From: Candidatus Magnetomicrobium cryptolimnococcus
GTDB lineage: Bacteria > Nitrospirota > Thermodesulfovibrionia > Thermodesulfovibrionales > Magnetobacteriaceae
DNA: 64,000 nt
Assembly (NCBI GenBank): GCA_018606805.1
Contig: JAGYWI010000008.1
Span: 1-64,000, forward strand
Reading direction: 5' to 3'
Part shown: piece by piece, positions 54,853 to 56,091 of the stretch
Position numbering within the stretch: position 1 is the first letter of the stretch
How the letters are laid out: every line of letters starts with the position of its first letter
Made by a program: the position numbers and the translations under genes
The notes under the pieces: model-generated
Told to the model about the DNA's origin: nothing
Database searches by the model: none
Seen by the model: only the letters and a program-made list of their open reading frames with translations

Positions 54853-55518
54853 CTAAGAATCGCCTTTGTATAAAAGCTTCCGTATTATAAATAATTCTAC
54901 AGATTCAGGCAAGAGATATTTTATGCTCTGGCCGTTTTTTAGTTTTTTTCTGATGTCTGTGGAGGATATGTTTAGTTGTGTAACGTTGACGAGATTTATG
55001 TAGTGGCCATTGATGAGGGGGATTTCATTTGTTTTGGTGTTTAAGTTGGTTTGATTTTTTATATATTTAGAGCGTTTAATGTCGTTATGGAGGTATGGGG
55101 GTCTTATTATAACAATAAACTCTACTTCTTTTAATAGGATGTCGGGTTGGTACCAAAGGTGGATGTCTAAGAAAGCATCTATGCCGATGGTAAAATATAT
55201 TTTGGAATTTTGGTATAGTTTTTTAAATTGTTCAACTGTATGCAATGTGTATGATGGGCATTGGTTTTGGTGGTATTCTATGTCTGAGACTTCAAAGATG
55301 GGGTTATCGTGTATTGCAAGCTTTACCATCTCAAACCTATCAGATGGTGGTGCTATATCAGTTTTTTTTAAAGGAGGGGTGTAGGAGGGTATAAATATGA
55401 TTTTATCAAGTGCAAAGGTTTCGGCTATTTCGGCAGCTGTGCGTAGGTGGCCGTAGTGGATTGGATTAAATGTGCCACCAAAAAGACCGATTTTTTTGTT
55501 TATATTATCTAATGGCAT
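54853..55518 (-). CDS. nadD: Nicotinate-nucleotide adenylyltransferase NadD
   Basis: The 221-residue nucleotidyltransferase of NAD synthesis has GLFGGTFNPIHYGHLRTAAE with the HxGH motif, FIPSYTPPLK, YFTIGIDAFLDIHLWYQ and ISSTDIRKKL. It heads the nadD-rsfS-lapB operon (one base gap to rsfS). Its start is divergent from the selenoprotein candidate at 55585. Confidence 0.95.
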   Translation of the reverse strand: MPLDNINKKIGLFGGTFNPIHYGHLRTAAEIAETFALDKIIFIPSYTPPLKKTDIAPPSDRFEMVKLAIHDNPIFEVSDIEYHQNQCPSYTLHTVEQFKKLYQNSKIYFTIGIDAFLDIHLWYQPDILLKEVEFIVIIRPPYLHNDIKRSKYIKNQTNLNTKTNEIPLINGHYINLVNVTQLNISSTDIRKKLKNGQSIKYLLPESVELFIIRKLLYKGDS

Positions 55519-55584
55519 TATTGTTTTATATTGTAGTATAATAAAATTTAATATTTATTTAGTCTAAGATATAGGAGGCTCAAA

Positions 55585-55752
55585 TTGCAATGCAGGGAGT
55601 GTAAAGGTAAGGTTGTTTTAGTATTTGCTTGACGCAGTGTCTCACTACGCTGCATGGCATGCGGCAAGGAATATGATGTTTATGATTATATTAATGAACT
55701 GGATGCCAGGGCATGGGATATGATTGCTGGCAGGCAGTGTGATAGGACATAA
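55585..55752 (+). CDS. Predicted small selenoprotein with two CXXC motifs
   Basis: A TTG start at 55585 stands six bases after AGGAGG (55573-55578). The frame reads LQCRECKGKVVLVFA, then TGA at 55630-55632, then RSVSLRCMACGKEYDV, and ends at TAA 55750-55752, 55 residues if TGA is read as selenocysteine. CREC and CMAC form a zinc-ribbon-like pair. This agrees with the dual-CXXC small (seleno)protein family, in which the same position is Cys or Sec. A bSECIS-like hairpin follows the TGA. Alternatively it is a gene killed by a nonsense mutation; the intact frame after TGA argues against this. Confidence 0.72.
55649..55665 (+). promoter_or_regulatory. Candidate bacterial SECIS hairpin
   Basis: GCTGCAT (55649-55655) pairs with ATGCGGC (55659-55665), one G-T wobble, over loop GGC. 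The loop starts 23 bases after the TGA and begins with G, both within the usual bounds for bacterial SECIS elements. A competing hairpin (55634-55653) can form immediately after the TGA. Confidence 0.55.
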
Positions 55753-55797: not shown

Positions 55798-56091
55798 ATG
55801 GCACAAACAGCACCAAAGAGGAAGCCCTCTGTTTTGAAAAGGGCAAGGCAAAATGTTAAAAGGCGTTTACGTAACAAATCAGAAAAAAGTAAGGTTAAAA
55901 CTTTAATAAAAACATATTTAGATGCTTTGGATTCAAAAGAAGTGCCTACTATTGAGCAGTCATTAAAGGACGTGATACGTGCACTAAGCAAACTGTCATC
56001 AAAGGGTATTATGCACAGAAACACGGTTTCAAGAAAGATTTCGCGCCTTGCGATAAAGGCAAATGAGTTTTTAAATAGTAAGGCTGCTTAA
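55798..56091 (+). CDS. rpsT: 30S ribosomal protein S20
   Basis: The 97-residue basic helical protein (SVLKRARQNVKRRLRNKSEKSKVKTLIKTY, then GIMHRNTVSRKISRLAIKAN) is S20, a 16S rRNA-binding protein. AGAAGGAGAAT precedes the ATG. It lies 45 bases after the selenoprotein candidate in the same direction. Confidence 0.96.
   Translation: MAQTAPKRKPSVLKRARQNVKRRLRNKSEKSKVKTLIKTYLDALDSKEVPTIEQSLKDVIRALSKLSSKGIMHRNTVSRKISRLAIKANEFLNSKAA

Follow-up and report, generated by a model that had tools for sequence, protein, structure and literature searches.

A very probable selenoprotein gene of the dual-CXXC family NF041197 in Candidatus Magnetomicrobium cryptolimnococcus, with a SECIS-like hairpin overlapping its second CXXC motif

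The closest described relatives of the gene analyzed here belong to NF041197 (CxxC_Se_CxxC), the 'dual CXXC motif small (seleno)protein' family. A 2026 review of prokaryotic selenoproteins enters this family twice, as OS_HP3, with the motif RxU and with Zhang and Gladyshev 2007, the Olavius algarvensis symbiont study, given as its source, and as 'hypothetical protein DW', with the motif GxU; these entries give no function for it (PMC13188914). As described in the same review, the bSECIS model calls for a stem of 4-16 bp, a loop of 3-9 nt with G within its first two positions, a spacing of 16-37 nt and an energy of at most -7.5 (PMC13188914).

We analyzed a window of 64,000 nucleotides of the Candidatus Magnetomicrobium cryptolimnococcus genome, in which a short frame very probably constitutes a genuine selenoprotein gene with its UGA decoded as selenocysteine, a judgment drawn from sequence comparison that excludes the biochemical role, which is graded separately below. 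The preliminary description had proposed a frame initiated by AGGAGG, six bases and TTG, broken by one TGA between two CXXC motifs and continuing to a normal stop, and had assigned it to the dual-CXXC family. All of these elements are present in the sequence (Table 1), with 15 codons before the TGA and 39 after it, then TAA, and with TGA read as U the product is MQCRECKGKVVLVFA-U-RSVSLRCMACGKEYDVYDYINELDARAWDMIAGRQCDRT. The assignment is borne out by hmmscan against NCBIfam, in which the protein scores 52.4 bits (E 4e-14) against NF041197, above the curated cut-off of 40, the match spanning residues 3-54 and profile positions 1-52 of 53, a result that sets the frame well apart from chance; in a six-frame search, with TGA entered as a stop, the match ran through the codon and scored 43.3 bits. 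A Pfam search of the protein returned no family above its cut-off, and no plasmid match was found.

The window protein resembles NF041197 in its length, in the two CXXC motifs flanking Sec or Cys, in the conserved EY..E.D...W and in the C-terminal R.CDR, and across 69 aligned sequences the columns C3, C6, C16(U), C23 and C26 are invariant. Whereas most relatives carry Arg or Gly before U, the window protein has Phe-Ala (FAU), and its TTG start is a further difference; it is 36-56% identical to the aligned relatives, with no categorical difference. The family being already catalogued, the locus adds one member to it and its novelty is low.

Table 1. Positions of the selenoprotein gene, its signals and neighbours (numbered in the window) and of selD (numbered in its contig).
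Feature	Position	Strand	Basis or remark
Candidate selenoprotein gene, NCBIfam NF041197 member, 55 residues	55585..55752	+	TTG start, in-frame TGA, TAA stop; translated with TGA as U
Shine-Dalgarno AGGAGG	55573..55578	+	direct sequence reading; 6 bases 5' of TTG
TTG start codon	55585-55587	+	direct sequence reading
First CXXC (CREC)	55591..55602	+	translation; Cys3 and Cys6 invariant in 69 aligned relatives
Putative selenocysteine TGA codon, residue 16	55630..55632	+	68 distinct sequences carry TGA here and 9 a Cys codon
Putative SECIS hairpin, 7 bp, loop GGC	55649..55665	+	GCUGCAU-GGC-AUGCGGC; pairs in relatives and covariation; lost in Cys forms
Second CXXC (CMAC)	55651..55662	+	its codons make up most of the hairpin
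TAA stop	55750-55752	+	direct sequence reading
rpsT (ribosomal protein S20), downstream neighbour	55798..56091	+	45 bases 3' of the gene's stop
nadD-like nucleotidyltransferase, divergent upstream neighbour	54853..55518	-	name from sequence GLFGGTFNPIHYGHL
selD (L062), one in-frame TGA	window genome G000, contig C29:40997-41911	-	TGA at apparent GUGGKL active site

We modeled the fold of the protein with AlphaFold2, which predicted strands at residues 9-14, 19-23 and 29-31 and helices at 32-35 and 41-48, and which placed residue 16 in the turn between the first two strands. The model built from 27 sequences reached pLDDT 80 and pTM 0.55, and one built from 69 sequences had the same elements and topology at pLDDT 68 and pTM 0.42. 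Foldseek matches include many small zinc ribbons but are weak, the best having E 0.23 and none in the PDB reaching 0.001. A sequence search of the PDB yielded nothing beyond partial matches to zinc fingers, and the two below E 0.01, covering 15-17 residues of designed zinc fingers, were dismissed as motif noise. In the predicted fold, the two CXXC knuckles and the beta hairpin are like those of small zinc ribbons such as Thermus ZifS (8yoz) and the ribbons of eIF2-beta and RNA polymerase, and the two knuckles probably bind one zinc; unlike the window protein, such small zinc-ribbon proteins are, to our knowledge, without selenocysteine. In a zinc ribbon both CXXC knuckles lie together at the base of the beta hairpin, an arrangement that would put the selenocysteine at the far tip and make it no zinc ligand, and from the strand pattern we infer that it would be exposed there.

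Given a selenoprotein, the motif and context point, with roughly even confidence, to a role in small thiol/selenol redox chemistry or in soft-metal/electrophile handling in an anaerobe. A competing role in translation, in which a zinc ribbon carrying Sec would act on the ribosome or on how ribosomal proteins are expressed, draws on weak similarity to zinc ribbons linked to the ribosome, S27e among them, and on the genes found 3' of this one. These are rpsT, just downstream on the same strand, in at least 15 of the 18 loci of the window's family (L017-L034), and, in other families, rplM-rpsI, at 14 distinct loci (including L039, L044-L046, L049, L051 and L054). This role is nevertheless unlikely, as the fold matches are without significance, ribosomal genes are common and make stable anchors, and other families have CxxCxxCC (PF03692), metallo-beta-lactamase, PurH-like and NYN genes as neighbours instead. 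Its more specific form, in which the selenocysteine would be exposed at the end of the beta hairpin, for catalysis or sensing, in a zinc ribbon that serves the ribosome or ribosomal-gene expression, is somewhat less likely again; if true, it would account for the repeated finding of the gene ahead of rpsT or rplM-rpsI and would amount to a selenoprotein role in translation. With neighbours varying by lineage, no pathway is strongly favoured. As a separate observation, a Cys-rich protein, some 166 residues long and matching nothing in Pfam, recurs as a divergent neighbour, often beside a gene of the metallo-beta-lactamase fold, and Cys-rich or CxxCxxCC (PF03692) neighbours occur at L042, L050, L105, L109, L117, L121-L123 and L133.

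Turning to the decoding of the TGA, all four components of the selenocysteine machinery that had been proposed for a search are encoded in the window genome (3.59 Mb, 91 contigs, 98.5% complete), and the absence of such machinery, named beforehand as an argument against a selenoprotein, was thus not what we found. The genome holds selC, a tRNA-Sec with the anticodon TCA (71.6 bits), together with selA (575 bits), selB (376.7 bits) and selD (323.9 bits). The in-frame TGA that selD itself carries reads as sitting at the GUGGKL site, which would make selenophosphate synthetase a second selenoprotein in this genome. Across the class, selB was matched at E <= 1e-60 in 208 of 231 genomes; at this threshold no match came from 4 of the 9 genomes with the Cys form (G003, G098, G124 and G157), nor from at least 10 with the TGA form, drafts of 78-96% completeness in which the missing selB reads as an assembly gap. 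Six genomes (G099, G100, G105, G112, G113 and G222) gave two or three selB matches at the same threshold.

A genome scan with a narrowed alignment yielded 36 named loci, almost entirely from Nitrospirota metagenome bins; Candidatus Magnetocorallium paracelense, of a Nitrospirota genus, is a carrier within the window's own family. The gene is present in 18 of the 20 genomes of that family, in the TGA form in 14 of the 18, and in 193 of the 231 genomes of the class. Among the class matches listed, 9 have no internal stop and every other has exactly one, which is always TGA. NF041197 is therefore close to universal in one Nitrospirota class, with the Sec form predominating, and the function of a Sec protein retained by four fifths of a class becomes a testable question.

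At the column of residue 16, 77 distinct sequences, picked by a pattern that admitted U or C there and nothing else, divide into 68 with TGA, the window's included, and 9 with Cys. Since such a pattern presupposes its outcome, five fetched loci outside it and the Desulfovibrio-labelled L138 were read by hand, and these have TGA at the same place, so that the residue is U or Cys in all sequences read. The alignment of homologues that had been suggested as a check thus sets the TGA column against Cys in several separate lineages: the Cys forms (L017-L020, of genus g4 in the window's own family, and L035, L037, L056, L064 and L065) are spread over that family, f9, f10 and f12, so that TGA was replaced by Cys several times independently. 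A frame degraded 3' of the TGA had also been anticipated as possible counterevidence, whereas the protein downstream is conserved in the 68 distinct TGA-bearing sequences.

We then examined the hairpin. The preliminary description had proposed a 7-bp hairpin with a G-first loop 23 bases past the TGA; its extent and loop are exact, and the distance holds for the loop but not for the stem, which begins 16 bases past the codon. The hairpin agrees with the bSECIS model, as the review describes it, on every item, with its 7-bp stem, GGC loop, UGA-to-loop distance of 23 nt and fold energy of -7.6 kcal/mol for the 17 bases, although the energy is just at the limit (PMC13188914). It differs in being built almost wholly of the codons of the second CXXC, such that protein motif and RNA signal coincide. 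Rfam RF00031 (SECIS_1) had no match in the window genome or in any control genome, longer RNA contexts folded into competing structures, and dinucleotide shuffles of the region folded about as stably as the region itself (z about 0). As the shuffle test was unremarkable, we relied on synonymous recoding, in which about 1% of recodings were as stable as the window hairpin, and on comparison across relatives.

In statistics that treat related sequences as independent, the TGA forms use TGC over TGT at 129:7 in the second CXXC, which lies in the stem, versus 73:63 in the first (Fisher 1e-15), and their hairpins average -7.1 where synonymous recodings average -1.6 (Wilcoxon p 8e-13), with Cys forms at 7:11 in the second CXXC and at -2.1 observed versus -1.8 recoded; on the same footing, 56 of the TGA forms have G-C as the outer pair and 5 have A-U, and an A at the 5' outer base comes with the compensating Gly codon GGT rather than GGC in 5 of 6 cases, GGT never occurring otherwise (Fisher p 2e-6). 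Third-position differences point the same way, at 0.21 for the hairpin codons of the TGA forms, 0.62-0.69 elsewhere in them and 0.53 in the Cys forms. Kinship is ignored in the codon, energy and pair statistics, but the differences are of considerable size and disappear in Cys forms. Judged by codon usage, the hairpin is under RNA-level constraint only where TGA is present, which, together with its fit to the bSECIS model, upholds the earlier reading of it as a putative SECIS element. The family also offers a clean comparative SECIS case, in which the same protein motif is codon-frozen with Sec and codon-free after replacement by Cys.

SelB binds SECIS-type hairpins and delivers Sec-tRNA at UGA. 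In the mechanism we propose, the ribosome would initiate at the TTG, SelB on the hairpin would bring Sec-tRNA to the UGA, and translation would continue to the TAA, giving a 55-residue zinc-ribbon-like protein with the selenocysteine in the turn joining the first two beta strands and the CXXC knuckles holding one zinc. What the sequences show is a recoded frame that is constrained as protein both before and after the UGA, together with a constraint on the RNA that goes with this codon.

Hairpins 3' of a stop codon can promote readthrough generally, and since the residue-level support for selenocysteine comes from sequence, the UGA might instead be read by near-cognate Trp, Cys or Arg, with the hairpin present for another purpose; we regard this as very improbable given the full selenocysteine machinery of the window genome, the match of the hairpin to the bSECIS model, as summarized in the review, in both spacing and loop, and the fact that Cys is the sole alternative residue at the site. 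Least credible of all is a true stop, which would make the gene a leader of 15 codons or a pseudogene in decay and the frame downstream a relic, since, for all that other genes of the window genome end normally at TGA and that some TGA-form drafts have no selB match, this reading is ruled out in practice by the conserved frame after the TGA, where third positions are the most variable, and is further opposed by the substitution of Cys, and never of another stop, for the TGA and by a synonymous constraint on the hairpin that is limited to TGA forms.

Selenocysteine decoding thus remains by far the preferred reading of the TGA. Among the window's plus-strand frames of 120 aa or more, the other in-frame TGAs all lie close to the end of the frame. 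It is plausible, as was suggested at the outset, that ordinary gene finders would miss a gene split by TGA in this way; NCBI's own annotation pipeline includes a model for the NF041197 family.
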